Below are positions 1,627-62,592 of a DNA stretch of 64,000 nucleotides, one piece after another. Every line of letters begins with the position of its first letter. Within the stretch, counting starts at the first letter, position 1. Source of the stretch: Neobacillus thermocopriae (lineage in GTDB: Bacteria; Bacillota; Bacilli; Bacillales; Cytobacillaceae); the NCBI RefSeq assembly GCF_010975035.1, contig NZ_JAAIUV010000008.1:1-64000 (forward strand), in the 5' to 3' direction. The notes under the pieces are model-generated. The model saw nothing but the letters and a program-made list of their open reading frames with translations. It was not told the origin of the DNA and made no database searches. Made by a program: the position numbers and the translations under genes.

Positions 1627-1674
1627 ATTAAAATATAAATGTATTCAAACTCTTTTTATTTTTGTAAAAATACG

Positions 1675-1840
1675 AAAAGCGCAAGCGCCCTCGGCAGCGA
1701 CGTAGGGCTTGGAAGTCTCCAACTGAGATAAAGGAAACACGAGGAGCCCAAAGCGAATCGATGTTGACTTATCGTAGGGCGGATACCGAAGGCGTCTCGA
1801 CGCTAAGGCGCTGGAGCTAGACAGTACTCAAAGTCAATAG
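1675..1840 (+). repeat. dispersed intergenic repeat, copy A
   Basis: A well-preserved but internally shortened copy of the family seen also near 12190, 15660, 15905, 40375 and 62385. It carries the conserved core CAACTGAGATAAAGGAAACA followed by CGAATCGATGTTGACTTATC and the tail GGCGCTGGAGCTAGACA. Its ends pair as AGCGCC (1684-1689) with GGCGCT (1807-1812), with a second AGCG/CGCT pairing inside. It has no open frame of useful length. I do not know a function for it. Confidence 0.85.
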
Positions 1841-1857
1841 ATATTTTTTATCTTATT

Positions 1858-1950
1858 GGAAAAGCGAAAGCCCACTGCTTAGCGGCGCATGACTTCCTCC
1901 CAAAAGCCACCGCTTTCGGTCGTGTGATGATTAGGCTAATGCCCTTTCAT
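1858..1950 (+). repeat. dispersed intergenic repeat, 5'-half copy A'
   Basis: Only the left half of the family is present: AAAAGCGAAAGCCCACTGCT, TTCCTCCCAAAAGCC, CGCTTTCGGTCGTGTGA. This is the segment that copy A lacks internally and that copies C and F carry. The rest of the 1487-2084 gap is AT-rich and shows nothing else beyond the ackA promoter and the ytxK terminator. Confidence 0.7.
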
Positions 1951-2053
1951 GAAAAAAACAAAAAGAGAGGATGGGGATTCAATAATGACTGATTATATGG
2001 CATAACACCACTATGGTAATTACTCCAAAATATTCCAGAAAAATATTCATTAT

Positions 2054-3135: not shown

Positions 3136-3636
3136 TTACTTCGCGTTTTTGGCAGCTTCTAGAGCCGCTTCATAGTTAGGGTGTTCAGTTACTTCATTCA
3201 CATACTCAACATAAGTCACTGTATCAGAAGAATCAACAACAAACACCGCACGAGCCAATAACCGTAATTCCTTAATCGCTACACCATAGGCTTCACCGAA
3301 AGATAAATCACGGTGATCGGATAATGTTTGAACATTTTCAATACCTGCTGCAGCGCACCAGCGTTTTTGAGCAAATGGAAGATCAACGCTAACTGTTAAT
3401 ACCTTGACATTATCTAAACCACTTGCTTCTTCATTGAAACGGCGAATTTCAGCATCACAAACACCTGTATCAACAGAAGGTACAGAAATGATGATACGAA
3501 CTTGCCCCTTTGTATTTTCTAAAGTAACTTCAGATAAATCATTTGCTAGAACAGTAAAGTTTGAAGCTTTATCGCCTACTTTTACTTCGTTTCCCAGTAA
3601 GGTAACTGGCTTTCCCTTAAACGTAACATTTGCCAT
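3136..3636 (-). CDS. tpx: thiol peroxidase Tpx
   Basis: Atypical 2-Cys peroxiredoxin that reduces hydroperoxides using thioredoxin. The 166-residue protein starts MANVTFKGKPVTLLGNEVKV, the normal Tpx start, preceded by AAGGAGG. The peroxidatic cysteine is in PSVDTGVCDAEIRRF and the resolving cysteine in KRWCAAAGIENV. The frame stays open 56 codons further upstream to 3804, but that extension runs through the ytfJ terminator and lacks homology, so I rejected it. Single gene with its own terminator. Confidence 0.96.
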   Translation of the reverse strand: MANVTFKGKPVTLLGNEVKVGDKASNFTVLANDLSEVTLENTKGQVRIIISVPSVDTGVCDAEIRRFNEEASGLDNVKVLTVSVDLPFAQKRWCAAAGIENVQTLSDHRDLSFGEAYGVAIKELRLLARAVFVVDSSDTVTYVEYVNEVTEHPNYEAALEAAKNAK

Positions 3637-12169: not shown

Positions 12170-12189
12170 CTTCGTCACCTTTCTTATAA

Positions 12190-12335
12190 GAAAAAGCAAG
12201 CTCCCTAGTCGCGGCGTATAGCTCCTACCAAACTCTATCGCTTTTAATTGTACGATTCCTATACCGAAGCCTTAAAAGGTATTTTGCCGTTAAAAGAATA
12301 GAGCTGGACAATTCTCAAAATAAAACTAAAAAAGG
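12190..12335 (+). repeat. dispersed intergenic repeat, degraded copy B
   Basis: Recognisable by AGCAAGCTCCCTAGTCGCGG, CGTATAGCTCCTACCA, ATCGCTTTTAATTGTACGA at the left and AGAGCTGGACAATTCTCAAA at the right. The central core with GATAAAGGAAACACG is missing. The ends still pair, AGCTC (12199-12203) with GAGCT (12301-12305), although the bases differ from copies A and C. Confidence 0.65.
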
Positions 12336-15180: not shown

Positions 15181-15660
15181 ATGTTTAAAGTCGAAAAATA
15201 TACTGGTAGTCGTGAAGATGGGTACTCTCTTGTAAAAAAGCAACTTATCGCCCTAATCGAAGATGAAAAAAATCAGATTGCTAACTTAAGTAATGCTTCT
15301 GCCTTGTTAAACCAATTTTTAGATCGGATTAACTGGGTTGGCTTTTATCTTATGGAGGAAGAAGATTTAGTACTAGGACCATTCCAAGGGCTTCCAGCCT
15401 GCGTGCGGATCCCCATTGGTAAAGGCGTATGCGGAAATGCCGCTTTAAAAAAAGAAACCATTCTTGTTCCAGATGTTCATCAATTCCCTGGCCATATTGC
15501 CTGCGATGCCGCAACACAATCAGAAATTGTCATTCCGATGATTAAAAACGGTCAATTAATTGGTGTTTTAGACATTGATTCACCTGAAAAAGACCGTTTT
15601 GATCAACTAGACCAAAAATATTTGGAAGAATTTGTTTCTATTTTAGTGGAACATCTATAA
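15181..15660 (+). CDS. ytsP: free methionine-R-sulfoxide reductase (GAF domain, YtsP)
   Basis: A 159-residue single GAF-domain enzyme that reduces free L-Met-R-sulfoxide. The three family cysteines are present at 74, 84 and 108 (LPACVRIPIGKGVCGNA and FPGHIACDAAT). Their spacing of 10 and 24 residues is the same as in the characterised E. coli enzyme. INWVGFYL and GVLDIDSPEKDRFDQ are also typical. An SD AAAAAGGTG precedes the ATG. Single gene; its stop directly adjoins dispersed repeat C. Confidence 0.93.
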   Translation: MFKVEKYTGSREDGYSLVKKQLIALIEDEKNQIANLSNASALLNQFLDRINWVGFYLMEEEDLVLGPFQGLPACVRIPIGKGVCGNAALKKETILVPDVHQFPGHIACDAATQSEIVIPMIKNGQLIGVLDIDSPEKDRFDQLDQKYLEEFVSILVEHL

Positions 15661-15885
15661 GAAGTGCAAAAGCCCCCTGTTCAGTGACGTATAGCCTCCT
15701 CCCAAAAGCTATCAGTTTCGGTCGTGCGACGCGGACACTGCCGTAGCCTTCCTTTTGGTGCTCTCCAACTGAGATAAAGGAAACACGAAAAGCCAATGGC
15801 GATTCGATGTTAACTCAATCAAAGGGAGGAGACTGAATGCGTCTCGCTGCTAGGGGGCTGGGGCTAGACATTTCTCGAAGTCAAA
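15660..15885 (+). repeat. dispersed intergenic repeat, full-length copy C
   Basis: The best full copy, about 225 bp. Left end GCAAAAGCCCCCTGTTCAG, then CTCCTCCCAAAAGCT, TTTCGGTCGTGCGAC, CCTTCCTTTTGGTGC, core CAACTGAGATAAAGGAAACA, GATTCGATGTTAACTC, and tail GGGGCTGGGGCTAGACATTT. Two perfect 8-bp long-range pairings are visible: AGCCCCCT (15671-15678) with AGGGGGCT (15852-15859), and CTCCTCCC (15696-15703) with GGGAGGAG (15824-15831). A small inner hairpin pairs CGAA (15786-15789) with TTCG (15803-15806). Confidence 0.88.
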
Positions 15886-15904
15886 TAAATAGCTTTTTAC
15901 TCTT

Positions 15905-16085
15905 ATAGAAAAATCATAAGCGCCCTGCTTGTGACGTAGACCTCCTTCCTTGGTCGTGCAATGCTCATGATGCAGTAACCTTCCTTTTGGTGCTTTCCAA
16001 CTAAGATAAAAAACGAAGAACTAAAGGTGACTCGATGTTGACTTACTTATCGTGTAGTGGAGATCGAAGACCATTTTCATCTCAT
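15905..16085 (+). repeat. dispersed intergenic repeat, copy D (tandem to C)
   Basis: Begins AATCATAAGCGCCCTGCTT about 20 bp after copy C. Keeps CTTCCTTTTGGTGCTTTCCA, AACTAAGATAAA, ACTCGATGTTGACTTACTTA and a variant of GGAGATCGAAGACC. The right end has decayed and no longer pairs with the left. Together C and D fill most of the 470-bp gap between ytsP and megL. Confidence 0.75.
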
Positions 16086-16102: not shown

Positions 16103-16133
16103 CTATTAAAAACCTCTCTACAGTCGAGGTTTA
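16103..16133 (-). terminator. megL terminator overlapping the stop codon
   Basis: AAACCTC / GAGGTTT hairpin (16126-16132 with 16110-16116). The 5' arm on the minus strand includes bases of the TAA at 16131-16133. The downstream T-run is short. Confidence 0.65.
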
Positions 16134-17315
16134 TATTTTTTCAAGCGCTTGTTCCAGATCATCCTTTAAATCCTCCCATGCTTCGAGCCCAACAGAAAGC
16201 CGAAGCAACGTATCGTCAAATCCCATATTCCTACGTTCTTCCTCTGGAACGACTGCATGGGTCATCGTGGCTGGATGCTGGATTAACGTTTCTGCATCAC
16301 CCAAACTTACTGCAACTTTAATCAGCTTTAACTGATTCATAAATCGTTGGGCTGTTTGTTTTGTCCCTTTTATTGAAAAAGAAAGTAGACCACCCGGTTG
16401 TTTCATTTGTTTTTTCATAATCTGATAATCCGCATGGTCAGGATCCCCAGGATAGTATATGGAATCAACTTTTGGATGTTTTTTTAAGAACTGAAATAGT
16501 TGGCTAGCATTTTCTGAGTGACGGTCCATTCGGACGGGGAGTGTCTTTAGCCCCCTTAAAAGTAGCCAAGCATCAAACGGAGAAATAATTCCACCGATAT
16601 CCTTTTGAGTGGTACGTGCCACCCTGTTAATAAATTCTTTATTCCCAACCACAAGTCCAGCGATCACGTCACCATGACCGCCAATATATTTTGTCGCGCT
16701 ATGAATAACGATATCACAGCCAAAGGAAATAGGATTTTGCAGGTAGGGTGAACAAAACGTATTATCAACGACAACAGGGATTCCTTTTTCTTTTGCTACC
16801 TTGGCAACCATTTGCAAATCAACGAGTTTCATCGTTGGATTAATCGGTGTTTCAATATAAATACAAGCCGTATTAGGAAGTATCTCTTTTTCTAATGTCT
16901 CAACTGAGTCCATCTGGCTAAAATCATGACTGATTTCATATTTTTCTTTTAAAAGCTGCAAGAAACCAAAAGTACAGCCATAAACCCCTGGTGAACATAG
17001 AATATGGTCTCCTGTTTTTGTTAAGGTAAATAATACAGCACTAACTGCAGCCATACCTGATGAAAAAGCAAGTGCTGCTTCTCCATTTTCAAGAGCTGCA
17101 ACCCTTTCTTCCAATATTTTAACAGTCGGGTTTCCAAGTCTTGAATAAATATACCCATCCTCCAGACCCGCAAATCTTTTTTCCCCCTGTTCAGCAGTGG
17201 TAAATGTAAAGGTTGAGGTTTGATACAATGGAGGAACTAAACTTCCTTGATGAAAGGATGAATCATATCCGGCATGGATAACCTCAGTTTCAAACCGTAC
17301 ACTTTTCTTCTTCAA
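16131..17315 (-). CDS. megL: methionine gamma-lyase (Cys/Met PLP family)
   Basis: A 394-residue trans-sulfuration family enzyme. The PLP lysine is in DIVIHSATKYIGGHGDVIAG. YSRLGNPTVKILE and SSGMAAVSAVL are family blocks. The sequence SPGVYGCTFGFLQLL carries the YGCTF cysteine that is characteristic of methionine gamma-lyase (Cys116 in P. putida) rather than cystathionine synthases. Predicted reaction: L-methionine to methanethiol, 2-oxobutyrate and ammonia. Start is TTG 17313-17315 preceded by GGGGGAGTGAG. Monocistronic. A cystathionine gamma-synthase or lyase activity cannot be excluded. Confidence 0.85.
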   Translation of the reverse strand: MKKKSVRFETEVIHAGYDSSFHQGSLVPPLYQTSTFTFTTAEQGEKRFAGLEDGYIYSRLGNPTVKILEERVAALENGEAALAFSSGMAAVSAVLFTLTKTGDHILCSPGVYGCTFGFLQLLKEKYEISHDFSQMDSVETLEKEILPNTACIYIETPINPTMKLVDLQMVAKVAKEKGIPVVVDNTFCSPYLQNPISFGCDIVIHSATKYIGGHGDVIAGLVVGNKEFINRVARTTQKDIGGIISPFDAWLLLRGLKTLPVRMDRHSENASQLFQFLKKHPKVDSIYYPGDPDHADYQIMKKQMKQPGGLLSFSIKGTKQTAQRFMNQLKLIKVAVSLGDAETLIQHPATMTHAVVPEEERRNMGFDDTLLRLSVGLEAWEDLKDDLEQALEKI

Positions 17316-25699: not shown

Positions 25700-25943
25700 A
25701 AAGTTAAAGGCTATGAAGGGAACCGATTTGTAGTTCTTCTATCCCTGTTTATTTAGAGAGGCAGCGGTCGGTGCAAGCTGCTACAAATAGAAGAATGAAT
25801 TACATCCCAGAGCTTTCTCTGTGAAAGGACTAGTAGCAGAGACCGGTTATAACCGTTATTTTGTTTGAGTTGGAGGATTCTATTCCTCAAGCTGGGTGGT
25901 ACCGCGATGATTCGTCCCTGCATGCTGCAGGGGCGTTTTTATT
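25700..25943 (+). promoter_or_regulatory. T-box riboswitch (tyrosine) upstream of tyrS
   Basis: A full T-box leader: stem I with AGAG-type and GGCAGCGGTCGGTGCAAGCT elements, specifier codon TAC (Tyr) at 25801-25803 in GAATTACATCC, the antiterminator T-box AAGCTGGGTGGTACCGCG at 25889-25906, and a terminator CCCTGCATGCTGCAGGGG with T-run (25915-25940). Uncharged tRNA-Tyr should favour the antiterminator and so raise tyrS expression. It fills most of the 398-bp gap between the PBP gene and tyrS. Confidence 0.95.
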
Positions 25944-37540: not shown

Positions 37541-40312
37541 TTATGAATGTACACCAGATTCGAGGAGCTGTTCTAATTCCGCTTCTGTAATTAAAACTTC
37601 CCGTGGCTTGCTTCCATTAGCACCTGAAATAAACCCGTGTTGTTCAAGCATATCCATCAATCTTGCCGCACGGTTATAACCAATTTTGAAGCGCCTCTGC
37701 AAGCTAGAAGTAGAAGCCCCACCCTGTTCGATAATGAATTCACAAACACTATAAAACAGCTCATCCTCTTCTTCTGTTATTTGAGCCTTTTTAATCAGTT
37801 CCTCTTGAACAAACAAATAGTCTGGTTCCTGTTCCCTTCTCACATGATCCACAACAGCATCAATTTCTTCATCCGTTACAAATGTTCCTTGAAGCCGGAC
37901 TGGCTTGGAAGTACCATTTTCAAGAAAGAGCATATCCCCGCGGCCTAATAATTTCTCTGCTCCACTTATATCTATGATCGTCCGAGAATCTACTTGGGAG
38001 GAAACAGAAAAGGCAATACGTGTCGGAATATTTGCCTTAATTAAACCTGTAATGACATCCACAGATGGTCGTTGGGTTGCAATGATTAGATGAATGCCAC
38101 AGGCTCTTGCCTTTTGAGCAATTCGGCAGATGGCCTCTTCCACATCAGCCGGTGACATCATCATTAAATCTGCTAATTCGTCAATGACAATCACGATATA
38201 CGGGAGTTTATCTGAATAGCGCTTTTGCTCTATGGCTAGTTCATTATAACGATTAATTTCTCGTACACCCGTATGGGCAAATAACTCATAGCGCCTCTCC
38301 ATCTCTTCAACTGCCCATTTTAAAGCTGCCGTTGCTGCTTTCACATCCGTAATAACCGGGCTAACAAGATGAGGAATCCGGTTATATGGTGCAAGTTCGA
38401 CCATTTTAGGGTCAATCAGCAACAATTTTAAATCTTGAGGAGCAGCTTTAAATAACAGACTGACCAAAATAGAATTGATACATACACTTTTTCCTGAACC
38501 CGTTGCACCAGCTATAAGTCCGTGAGGCATTTTTTTCAAATCTGTAACAATCGGTTTCCCTTCAATATCAAGTCCAAGGACGGTTGTGAGCGGAGATGCT
38601 GATTGTTGAAATACATCACTAAGAATAAGTTCACTAATTCTTACCGGACGGGAATGTTGATTCGGTACCTCAATTCCGATCGTATGCTTCCCTGGTATCG
38701 GCGCCTCGATCCGAATATCTCTGGCCGCCAAACTCAACTTTATATCATCACTTAAATTGGTAATTTTATTTACTTTTACACCCGGTTCCGGCTGTACCTC
38801 AAACCTTGTGACCGATGGCCCCTGTGTTACATTAACCACCCTTGCACCAACATTAAAGTTTTGAAGAGTACGATTTAACAATTCCTCCTGTTGAAGCAAC
38901 CACTCGGTATCTATTACATCAGATACTGGAGGGTGCAATAAGTTCGAATTTGGGAACATATAATGGGATATTTCAATAGTGTCTTTGTCCACTTGTCCAC
39001 TGCTTTCATTTATTTGCTCGTGTCTTGGCTGAGCAAGTGACTCCTTTTTTTCATTGTCTTCATCAATGAAAGGGGGCTTAGTCTCGATGTATGGTTCTGC
39101 TTGCTTCTCCTCTTTACCTTGTAATAAAAGCTCCCTCTTCGATTCCTCCCGATTTCTTTTCTGTCGTGCCTCCCATTTCACCCGATCTTGTTTTAACATG
39201 AGTACATTAAATGGCAGGCGTGAACGCTTTGGTTTTGGGGTTGGTGGTTGTTCACTTGGTACAATCTCCCCATCAGCCCGGTTTACAGTACCCTCTCTCT
39301 GTTGTTTTCTCACAATGGCTGGAACCTCATCTACCAATTTTCGTTCTGTATGATCAGCTTCCTCCTTAATTGGCTGTTCCATTTTTATTTCTTTTACTGA
39401 TTCATCTGTAACAATTGAAGCAGAATCTATCTTTCTACTATGTGGTTGTTCCGTTTCTTCCTGCACGATTTCAGAATCATTTGAGTTTGTTTCAGAATAA
39501 TATGTATGTACTTGTACCACATCATTCGATTCTAATGGTAGGCTCGAATGCTTTGCTATTGGGTTTGGTGGTTGTTCACTTGATACAACCTCCTCATTTT
39601 CTCGGTTTACATTTCTTTCTGCCTGTTGTTTCCTCACGATGGCTGGAACCTCATCCACTAATTTTGGTTTTGTTGTATCAATATCCTCTCTAATTGATGG
39701 TTCCCTTTTTACATCTTTCATTGATTCATTCGAAACATTTGAGATAAAATCTATCTTTCTAATATTTGGTTGTTCTGTTTCTTCCTGTACGATTTCAGAA
39801 TCATTTAAGTTTGTTTCAGGGTGATATGCAAATACTTGATCCACATCATTCGACTCTAAAGGGGCATTTTCCTTCGGTTGTAAGTAGTCTTGTTCCTCTT
39901 CCTTAAGAAACTGGGTTAACTCATGTTCTACTACCATTTCAGATTTTTTCGGCCGATTAAATCCATAGATGGGGGATGGGATTTCTGTTGGATGAAATGG
40001 ACCGCTTTTTTTTAGGGTTTTTACCTTTAAAGTTTTTGGAACGGTTTTTTCCTTGGTTTTGACTTCTGTCGACTCCATTTTGTCTTGTTCCATATTTCTT
40101 TCCCGTCTATTTCTTGAGACTTTTTTTACGGGGTTGGATTTTTCAAATAAAGGTCGGTAATCCGATTTTGGATATTGATAGGAAATCCTAGCTTCGACAT
40201 CTTTTGTACTTTCCCTTTGATAACTTGGGAAATCATTTTCCGTATAATCATCTTCGTAAGTAAATTCTTCCTCTTTCTTAAATTTTTGAAAAAAGGTTTG
40301 GAACCAACTCAA
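37541..40312 (-). CDS. sftA: FtsK/SpoIIIE-family DNA translocase SftA
   Basis: Soluble DNA pump, 923 residues, that clears DNA from the closing septum. There is no membrane helix in the N-terminus, which separates SftA from SpoIIIE. A long acidic, disordered linker (about 20-460) contains a 108-residue tandem duplication. The motor follows: beta region, Walker A LIAGATGSGKSVCINSILVS, LLLIDPKMVELAPYN, IVIVIDELADLMMM (Walker B), QRPSVDVITGLIK. A C-terminal gamma winged helix ends it (GGASTSSLQRRFKIGYNRAA). I take TTG 40310-40312 (MSWFQTFFQKF, matching known SftA starts) with AAAGAGTGAT upstream; GTG 40321 is the alternative. Confidence 0.94.
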   Translation of the reverse strand: MSWFQTFFQKFKKEEEFTYEDDYTENDFPSYQRESTKDVEARISYQYPKSDYRPLFEKSNPVKKVSRNRRERNMEQDKMESTEVKTKEKTVPKTLKVKTLKKSGPFHPTEIPSPIYGFNRPKKSEMVVEHELTQFLKEEEQDYLQPKENAPLESNDVDQVFAYHPETNLNDSEIVQEETEQPNIRKIDFISNVSNESMKDVKREPSIREDIDTTKPKLVDEVPAIVRKQQAERNVNRENEEVVSSEQPPNPIAKHSSLPLESNDVVQVHTYYSETNSNDSEIVQEETEQPHSRKIDSASIVTDESVKEIKMEQPIKEEADHTERKLVDEVPAIVRKQQREGTVNRADGEIVPSEQPPTPKPKRSRLPFNVLMLKQDRVKWEARQKRNREESKRELLLQGKEEKQAEPYIETKPPFIDEDNEKKESLAQPRHEQINESSGQVDKDTIEISHYMFPNSNLLHPPVSDVIDTEWLLQQEELLNRTLQNFNVGARVVNVTQGPSVTRFEVQPEPGVKVNKITNLSDDIKLSLAARDIRIEAPIPGKHTIGIEVPNQHSRPVRISELILSDVFQQSASPLTTVLGLDIEGKPIVTDLKKMPHGLIAGATGSGKSVCINSILVSLLFKAAPQDLKLLLIDPKMVELAPYNRIPHLVSPVITDVKAATAALKWAVEEMERRYELFAHTGVREINRYNELAIEQKRYSDKLPYIVIVIDELADLMMMSPADVEEAICRIAQKARACGIHLIIATQRPSVDVITGLIKANIPTRIAFSVSSQVDSRTIIDISGAEKLLGRGDMLFLENGTSKPVRLQGTFVTDEEIDAVVDHVRREQEPDYLFVQEELIKKAQITEEEDELFYSVCEFIIEQGGASTSSLQRRFKIGYNRAARLMDMLEQHGFISGANGSKPREVLITEAELEQLLESGVHS
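39212..39859 (-). repeat. 324-bp in-frame tandem duplication inside sftA
   Basis: Unit 1 is 39536-39859 and unit 2 is 39212-39535, each 108 codons. Both encode LESNDV, then ETNxNDSEIVQEETEQP, then KLVDEVPAIVRKQQ, xVNR and SEQPP. The two units have diverged at roughly 40 percent of residues, mostly between the conserved blocks. Confidence 0.9.
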
Positions 40313-40374
40313 AACAATCACTCTTTCTACACTCTTCTATCATTCTATTTTATCAGTATTTCTTAGTTTTTCGA

Positions 40375-40560
40375 CAAGATTCTAAGGAATCATTAAAGGG
40401 TAAATGCTCTGCTGCATAGTGGTATGGGTAGATTCTCTGCGTCTGGAATAAATGAAACACGAATTGCTTGAAGCAATTCGATGTTGATTGATCCATGGCG
40501 AGAAGAGCGGTGCCATACGCCACTAGAAATATTACGCTCAAAAGTTCTCAAGGTTAAAAA
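40375..40560 (+). repeat. dispersed intergenic repeat, diverged copy E
   Basis: Recognised by GGAATAAATGAAACACGAA, AATTCGATGTTGATTGATCC and ACGCTCAAAAGTTCTCAAGG. Its ends pair over 11 bp: TAGTGG (40417-40422) with CCACTA (40520-40525), and TATGG (40423-40427) with CCATA (40513-40517). An inner 9-bp hairpin is CGAATTGCT (40460-40468) / AGCAATTCG (40472-40480). It fills the 310-bp gap between sftA and ytpQ. Confidence 0.7.
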
Positions 40561-62384: not shown

Positions 62385-62592
62385 ACTTAAAAGTGAAAGG
62401 CTCCCTGTTTAGCGTCCTCCTATCGCCTCCTCCCATAAGCTGTCGCATTCAGTCATGCGATATGGATGCTACCGGAGGCTTCCTTGTGTTAACCTCCAAC
62501 TGAGATGAAAGAGAATACACGAAGAGACGGAAAGACGAATAGATGTTGACTTAAACTTAAGTCATCTCACTGCTAGATTTTTTAAAGTCAAA
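62385..62592 (+). repeat. dispersed intergenic repeat, copy F
   Basis: Near full-length but diverged: AAGGCTCCCTGTTTAGCG, GCCTCCTCCCATAAGCTGTC, a clean hairpin TCGCAT/ATGCGA around TCAGTC, GGCTTCCTTGTGTTAACCTC, CAACTGAGATGAAAGAGA, ATAGATGTTGACTTAAACTT. The right end with GGCGCTGGAGCTAGACA is lost. It fills the gap between cse60 and the rhodanese gene. Confidence 0.78.

Follow-up and report, generated by a model that had tools for sequence, protein, structure and literature searches.

Positions 15,671 to 15,859 of the window, as we call the whole 64,000-nucleotide stretch of Neobacillus thermocopriae DNA analysed here, belong to a repeat whose ends can pair, and the question they raise is whether that pairing reflects a selected structure, in RNA or in single-stranded DNA, or simple inverted ends. 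The initial annotation had argued for the former, on the ground that the ends of four copies (A, B, C and E) pair with different bases. The 189-base stretch itself gave 56 blastn matches in its own 3.2-Mb genome, and an alignment of 39 full copies revealed a sharp 5' edge, (T)AGAAAAGCGNAAGCGCC, a conserved body ending in GGCGCTGGAGCTAGACA, and a conserved tail that fades out. Units are found singly or head to tail with a period near 245, and come in two lengths: the short form, such as copy A, has about 150 nt, and the long form, such as copy C, the unit under study, about 60 more. Unit C and its immediate surroundings comprise the following features:

15660..15906, + strand: unit C, long form plus tail (nhmmer match 15659-15900; boundaries from the 39-copy alignment; fold z about -4)
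15671..15678, + strand: 5' arm of terminal stem P1, AGCCCCCT (family consensus AGCGCCCT)
15696..15703, + strand: 5' arm of the second stem, CTCCTCCC, where the long form has its extra module (predicted fold)
15781..15817, + strand: conserved apical domain, AAACACGA..hairpin..TCGATGTTAACT (direct-repeat family D2; among the best-conserved alignment columns)
15824..15831, + strand: 3' arm of the second stem, GGGAGGAG (predicted fold)
15852..15859, + strand: 3' arm of P1, AGGGGGCT, pairing with 15671-15678 (one double change against the consensus)
15860..15906, + strand: 3' end motif GGGGCTAGACA and A/T-rich tail, reaching the next unit (tail conserved in the 39-copy alignment)
16108..16141, no strand assigned: downstream of the C-D array, an A-tract, a hairpin (AACCTC and GAGGTT around a 9-nt loop) and a T-rich tract (read in the sequence)

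The 5' edge of unit C is the stop codon of the open reading frame at 15181-15660, a GAF-domain gene, and the A-tract and hairpin at 16108-16141 are the type of site where the family inserts elsewhere; a terminator scan listed no terminator after the C-D array, the 9-nt hairpin loop exceeding the loop limit of that scan. More generally, the element consists of a rod of about 147-153 nt followed by a tail of about 50-60 nt, which empty-site comparisons at other loci assign to the inserted DNA. The rod starts with P1, interrupted by a GNAA/TGGA internal loop, and continues through P2 to P6, whose internal loops are conserved, as is the apex; a hairpin, GCGNAAGC, lies close to the left end of the element. 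Long forms hold an extra module, and in other genomes hairpin modules are inserted at more than one position. At L098, L142 and L170 these positions include the TGGA side of the P1 loop and the interval separating P1 from P2, and the inserts look like a second-level mobile module.

Besides unit C, the window holds six copies:

1673..1822, + strand: copy A, short form, best scorer in the window (covariance model R1, 132.6 bits, E=1.7e-32, a score that is not independent, A being among the 70 copies used to build the model)
1857..2002, + strand: long-form copy, 3'-truncated, head to tail with A (nhmmer; fold z=+0.4)
12187..12310, + strand: copy B, degenerate, partner of the terminal stem lost (nhmmer 12190-12273; fold z=+1.2)
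15907..16080, + strand: copy D, decayed, head to tail with C (nhmmer 15910-16075; partial model match 15986-16070)
40392..40542, + strand: copy E, divergent, P2/P3 and inner hairpin retained (model R1, 40.9 bits; fold z=-4.0)
62389..62590, + strand: copy F, decayed long form (nhmmer 62389-62553)

All the arm pairs listed by the initial annotation are present (A at 1684/1807, B at 12199/12301, C at 15671/15852, E at 40417/40520), and so are the second stem of C, CTCCTCCC/GGGAGGAG, at 15696/15824 and the inner hairpin of E at 40460/40472. The four pairs, however, are not one stem, as those of A and C are terminal and those of E and B are not. A compensatory change in the terminal stem is therefore seen only between A and C, whose homologous arms differ by one G-C to C-G double change (consensus AGCGCCCT/AGGGCGCT, unit C AGCCCCCT/AGGGGGCT). 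In E, the segments TAGTGG/CCACTA and TATGG/CCATA, taken to be its terminal stem, align instead to P2 and P3 of the family model, the next two inward. In B, set against the family consensus of the nhmmer stage, the homologous 3' arm is lost, and the GAGCT that pairs with AGCTC belongs to the next motif along, GGAGCTRGACA; being out of register, this pairing is best read as fortuitous, with no compensatory change involved. When the folding energy of each window copy was compared with 200 dinucleotide shuffles, no shuffle reached that of copy C (z=-4.1) or copy E (z=-4.0). Copies A, D and F gave weak signals (z=-1.3 each, equalled by 20, 22 and 20 of 200 shuffles, respectively), and the copies at 1857 (127/200) and B (179/200) gave none, so that two of the seven window copies are clearly more structured than chance.

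Covariation among the copies of the genome, the evidence to which the initial annotation had appealed, did not materialise. Across 37 distinct long copies, none of 61 structure pairs was significant, and the best of all column pairs had E=2.4; co-changes numbered 15, against 6-18 when partners were slid along the alignment. Single changes gained a G-U pair 87 times, an A-C mismatch 83 times and other mismatches 110 times, the near equality of the first two being what neutral decay would produce. Taken by themselves, these data amount to the outcome that the initial annotation had named as refuting its reading. They show nothing beyond simple inverted-repeat ends that pair by chance, with no structure under selection, and the fortuitous pairing of B agrees with such a view, which the comparison across genera nevertheless renders very improbable.

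The family extends well beyond this genome. Blastn finds the element in 21 of 24 genomes from this genus, our own included, and in none of 16 from other families. A motif scan that demanded the exact apical motif had, among the matches listed, at least Neobacillus, Lederbergia, Oceanobacillus, Pontibacillus, Halobacillus, Virgibacillus, Cytobacillus, Mesobacillus, Heyndrickxia and others, along with two records named Paenibacillus; due to that demand, the columns of the motif are invariant by construction in L067 onward. Covariance model R1, built from the short form in 70 diverse copies, matched 204 of 299 genomes of the order at E<=1e-6, the best match falling below 1e-20 in about 88 of the 299 (hand count, own genome included). 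Weak matches (E 1e-6 to 1e-13) were excluded from membership of the family; the genomes of the order with weak matches only might carry a distant class, or possibly terminator-like hairpins under a rough calibration. In a sample of the phylum, 2 of 249 genomes matched at E<=1e-18, both from the host's order, with no match from another order in that sample. The body had no Rfam match at the gathering score in the window and related loci, and chance-level matches only below it; plasmid and phage collections gave no blastn match; and the open-access literature, most subscription journals lying outside that search, yielded no description of the family. At L164:5278-5423 and L183:3760-3905, a copy directly follows what appears by eye to be the 3' end of a 23S rRNA gene.

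Across genera the picture is reversed. In 108 short copies we counted 99 co-changes, against 30.5 +- 4.8 expected (at most 45 in 1000 placements); sliding the partners gave 13-29. Since the structure comes from running RNAalifold on the same 108-copy alignment, the outer stem, proposed beforehand, is the sole independent test: its P1b portion shows 15 co-changes against 2.8 (maximum 8 of 300), a case made by the count, no single P1 pair being significant alone in these copies. Excesses were likewise seen in P2 (16 against 5.0, maximum 10), P3 (20 against 3.8, maximum 8) and P6 (21 against 3.8, maximum 10), with P4 (20 against 13.7, maximum 22) and P5 (5 against 1.8, maximum 7) remaining within their control maxima. 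A tree-based test limited to the structure, whose null was coded anew after the approach of R-scape and is not that of R-scape itself, found 10 of 45 pairs significant in the 108 copies; in an all-against-all test of the same copies two column pairs reached E<=0.05, both inside the structure. Similar results came from 70 diverse copies, in which 95.0% of cells pair and 291 cells carry double changes (89 when shuffled, 20-49 when slid), and from 141 copies, with 11 of 46 pairs significant and 107 co-changes against 20-38 for slid partners. In the latter set, G-U pairs outnumber A-C mismatches 99 to 53 (p=0.0002), with 23 pairs leaning to G-U and 9 to A-C (sign p=0.02), an excess expected if the + strand folds. 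Outer and inner stems thus covary beyond slid, shuffled and tree-based controls, which argues against chance pairing and, as several interior stems are involved, bears out the view that the structure exceeds simple inverted ends. A selected structure, then, is upheld, but by the comparison between genera and not by the copies of one genome. Read most simply, the data mean that selection acts on the structure in the spreading lineage, and that copies which have landed, such as those of the window, decay. The strand under selection may be RNA or single-stranded DNA, as the data fit both.

That the element moves can be seen in two genera, at sites that hold it in one genome and lack it in another. 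Eight pairs were counted, three between G162 and G284 (L208/L225, L207/L224, L206/L226) and five between G159 and either G099 or G281 (L192/L274, L185/L278, L184/L279, L191/L277, L186/L275), of which L208/L225 and L192/L274 are the cleanest and those with L186 and L191 less clean. The insert, tail included, measures from 208 nt (L192, L184) to 213 nt (L208); L207 holds two units, and L206 and L185 hold older remnants too. L184, compared with three genomes, was counted once among eleven comparisons involving G159 loci; L187, L189, L190 and L193 (other elements or filled sites) were left out, and divergence between the G284/G162 copies and G322 was too high for junctions to be read. No target duplication is evident at the eight pairs, with A-tracts leaving 2-3 A/T letters ambiguous. 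Seven of the eight sites lie just before an A-rich tract, and for five of these (L207, L185, L184, L191, L186) folding of the flank predicts a compact hairpin whether the site is filled or empty. At L206 a hairpin is predicted only when the site is filled, at L208 the stem closes a loop of 32 nt, and L192 lacks both A-tract and hairpin. Dispersed copies can be near-identical, the median identity to the nearest copy being 0.973 in G162 (n = 15), 0.966 in G159 (n = 7) and 0.993 in G284 (n = 3).

On the left side, the last two letters of the flank are AA or TA in 139 of 181 cases, and the last three are TAA in 54, with no fixed target word. A sense stop codon (frame of at least 70 codons) lies within 60 nt upstream in 64 of the 154 copies that have no upstream tandem unit, compared to 39 of 605 random positions, and 48 of those 64 stop codons fall between -2 and +4. 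Downstream, a terminator was detected within 130 nt in 42 of 124 copies; random positions have one in 20 of 605 cases, ordinary gene ends in 195 of 715. Because the figure for copies is little above that for gene ends, the site preference could partly be survival of harmless insertions.

The proximity of stop codons, together with the preference for G-U over A-C on the + strand, would also suit an RNA with a host function, such as a multiplied regulatory 3'-UTR or a small RNA that stabilises or regulates a transcript, or that titrates CsrA through a module known as the Bacillaceae-1 RNA (RF01690). This 67-nt module lies inside some copies, on the strand opposite to the element (L073:1992-2058, L078:532-598, L088:263-329 and 3326-3391, L146:297-363, L160:2565-2631), which suggests that the Rfam strand of RF01690 may need reversing. 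According to PMC4333381, its discoverers were unsure of the strand, and CsrA-site matches fall on the reverse complement, where binding of CsrA is proposed. That reverse complement is the sense strand of the element, the + strand here. The Bacillaceae-1 RNA is nonetheless only an insert of the element and not its body; it had no match at the gathering score in the window, and is present in only some relatives. Host function is further at odds with the lack of pair-keeping among the 37 copies of our genome and with empty sites that adjoin the same genes, and we consider it unlikely as the source of the structure, even though decay in one genome is compatible with a possible host function of a few copies.

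How the element moves is a separate matter. With dnaA taken as origin and exact left ends counted by hand (tandem units are not independent, and the G162 match at 3878001 was discarded as spurious), elements run counter to the replication fork in 30 of 38 cases in G162, 19 of 24 in G281, 7 of 7 in G059, 16 of 22 in G284 and 2 of 2 in G103. G239 is the exception of the six genomes, with none of seven against the fork and all seven exact left ends pointing with it. Such a skew in five of six genomes, the lack of evident target duplication, the AA, TA or TAA of the left flank and the hairpin GCGNAAGC near the left end would all be in keeping with a remnant of the IS200/IS605 kind, moved as single-stranded DNA by a Y1 transposase and inserted on the 3' side of a short target, for instance TAA. 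We hold this route to be rather unlikely. The hand-counted orientation in the five genomes places the bottom strand, and not the top, on the lagging-strand template (G239 is the opposite), and a Y1_Tnp match is found in 18 of 20 carrier genomes and in neither G000 nor G257, both drafts. REP/BIME and IS200/IS605-derived elements are structured and oriented and make no target duplication, and ours, structured, skewed in orientation and with no evident duplication, may be like them in these respects; it differs in having no firm link to a Y1 transposase.

The same skew, and the remnants left in G162, could instead point to RNA-templated insertion, a bacterial analogue of SINEs, carried out by a reverse transcriptase, for instance one from a group IIC intron. 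Five remnants in G162 retain only the left end (L245, L247, L258, L264 and the second of L260), four of which run directly into an A-rich stretch and hairpin, and at most one only the right end (L269); one-ended remnants suit reverse transcription, but this asymmetry was noticed post hoc among 40 fetched regions of one genome. Outside the tally are some left ends with one mismatch and four right ends with two; L249, L255, L257, L259, L263 and L265 were dropped as chance matches to the left-end pattern, and L244, L261 (which may keep a right-end motif) and the second ones of L240 and of L250 were left out as ambiguous. Group IIC introns insert beside intrinsic terminators according to the available portion of one source (PMC8919778), and on its bottom strand our element does come after a hairpin and T-tract, as in the geometry given there. 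Terminator adjacency is thus common to both, but the element is about 200 nt long with no reverse transcriptase inside, and none of 4227 Rfam families for which the window was scanned gave a group II intron RNA match there, nor did the related loci scanned. The route would moreover need a bottom-strand RNA, in spite of the G-U preference that favours the + strand, and TIGR04416 has no match in 5 of 20 carrier genomes and only a weak one in G159; we regard it as decidedly unlikely. As necessary mobilisers, the group II reverse transcriptase and the Y1 transposase are both unsupported, with no match in 5 and 2 of 20 carrier genomes, respectively, the latter two being drafts. A bolder picture, in which the family would be a counterpart of SINEs, made of short structured RNAs with shared ends and exchangeable interiors that are copied to DNA in trans beside terminators throughout the order, and in which modules such as Bacillaceae-1 would hop in and out of loops, appears to us equally doubtful.

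G162 offers a further view of which parts of the element matter, as the same ends and terminal stem there enclose different interiors. The class described so far has 153 nt; a second, of 123 nt (CAGCCCCGACAAGC...GACCTCGAGGGGCT; L234:118-240 on the minus strand, L235, L236, L237, L252, L253), shares the ends and terminal stem around an unrelated interior. Several copies of the first class lack the apex and measure 106-107 nt (L238, L239, L240), and there are also one of 130 nt and minimal ones of 32-35 nt. Since several copies are devoid of the whole apical domain, the most conserved part of the element seems dispensable for spread. Different interiors within the same ends and terminal stem are as expected if ends and stem are what is recognised.

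MITEs are short, mobile, present in many copies and free of open reading frames, and our element is like them in being non-autonomous, short and multicopy (56 matches), with no ORF-bearing pair of ends in G162, the sole genome surveyed, where end pairs span about 32 to 154 nt. It departs from them in having neither clear terminal inverted repeats nor evident target duplication, and in its conserved interior structure. The ends contain AGC/GCT, and in some clades the end of the tail bears a weak likeness to TAAGAAA (by eye); no parent transposon with matching terminal inverted repeats was found. The closest published kind are the bcr1-bcr18 repeats, reportedly defined by Okstad (2004) and Kristoffersen (2011), which we compared by their descriptions; bcr1 may be a relative. 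In the accessible parts of three sources (PMC3446304, PMC2267715, PMC6542083), these repeats of the Bacillus cereus group are intergenic, present in many copies, foldable, endowed with mobile features and often placed in UTRs, bcr1 being about 150-170 bp long, with a mobility tied to a repeated TTTAT motif and a range described as restricted to that group. The likeness lies in intergenic position, size, copy number, foldability and mobility; the range differs, as our element reaches many genera, compared to the restriction of bcr1 given in those parts of the sources. TTTAT does occur inside several tails, in some of them 10-15 nt from the tail end, and is not repeated on both sides of the insertion.

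Because neither the reverse transcriptase nor the Y1 route fully fits, we commit only to an element that is moved in trans and recognised by its fold. The stretch under study is probably a decayed copy of such a non-autonomous mobile element of the host's order, that of Bacillales-type bacteria, whose source copies would need the fold to move. The mobile form would be a single strand folded as a long rod, P1 to P6, with the tail of about 50-60 nt behind; an enzyme supplied in trans would recognise the fold and the shared ends, and would join the element with no evident target duplication, mostly immediately upstream of an A-rich tract followed by a hairpin, usually a terminator, and often directly after a stop codon. 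If only folding copies move, the spreading lineage would keep its pairs while the letters drift, and each landed copy would then decay. We infer that it is movement, and not host function, that selects the fold; a mobilising protein was not found, nor was a gene-bearing relative in the one genome surveyed, G162. Two kinds of selection on the structure are separated in this way, strong in the moving lineage and none seen in the landed copies here. The family is numerous and mobile, its structure is under constraint, it occupies gene ends in many Bacillus-like genomes, and its body matched no Rfam family; it also gives the orphan Bacillaceae-1 RNA a context, and shows which of its strands belongs to the element. 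What it brings up in turn is what moves an element that has no gene and no target duplication, and mostly a terminator for its address.

Elsewhere in the window, positions 25704-25922 hold an ordinary T-box leader, and two 300-nt direct repeats, 80% alike, lie at 39210-39833 within the long open reading frame 37541-40321.
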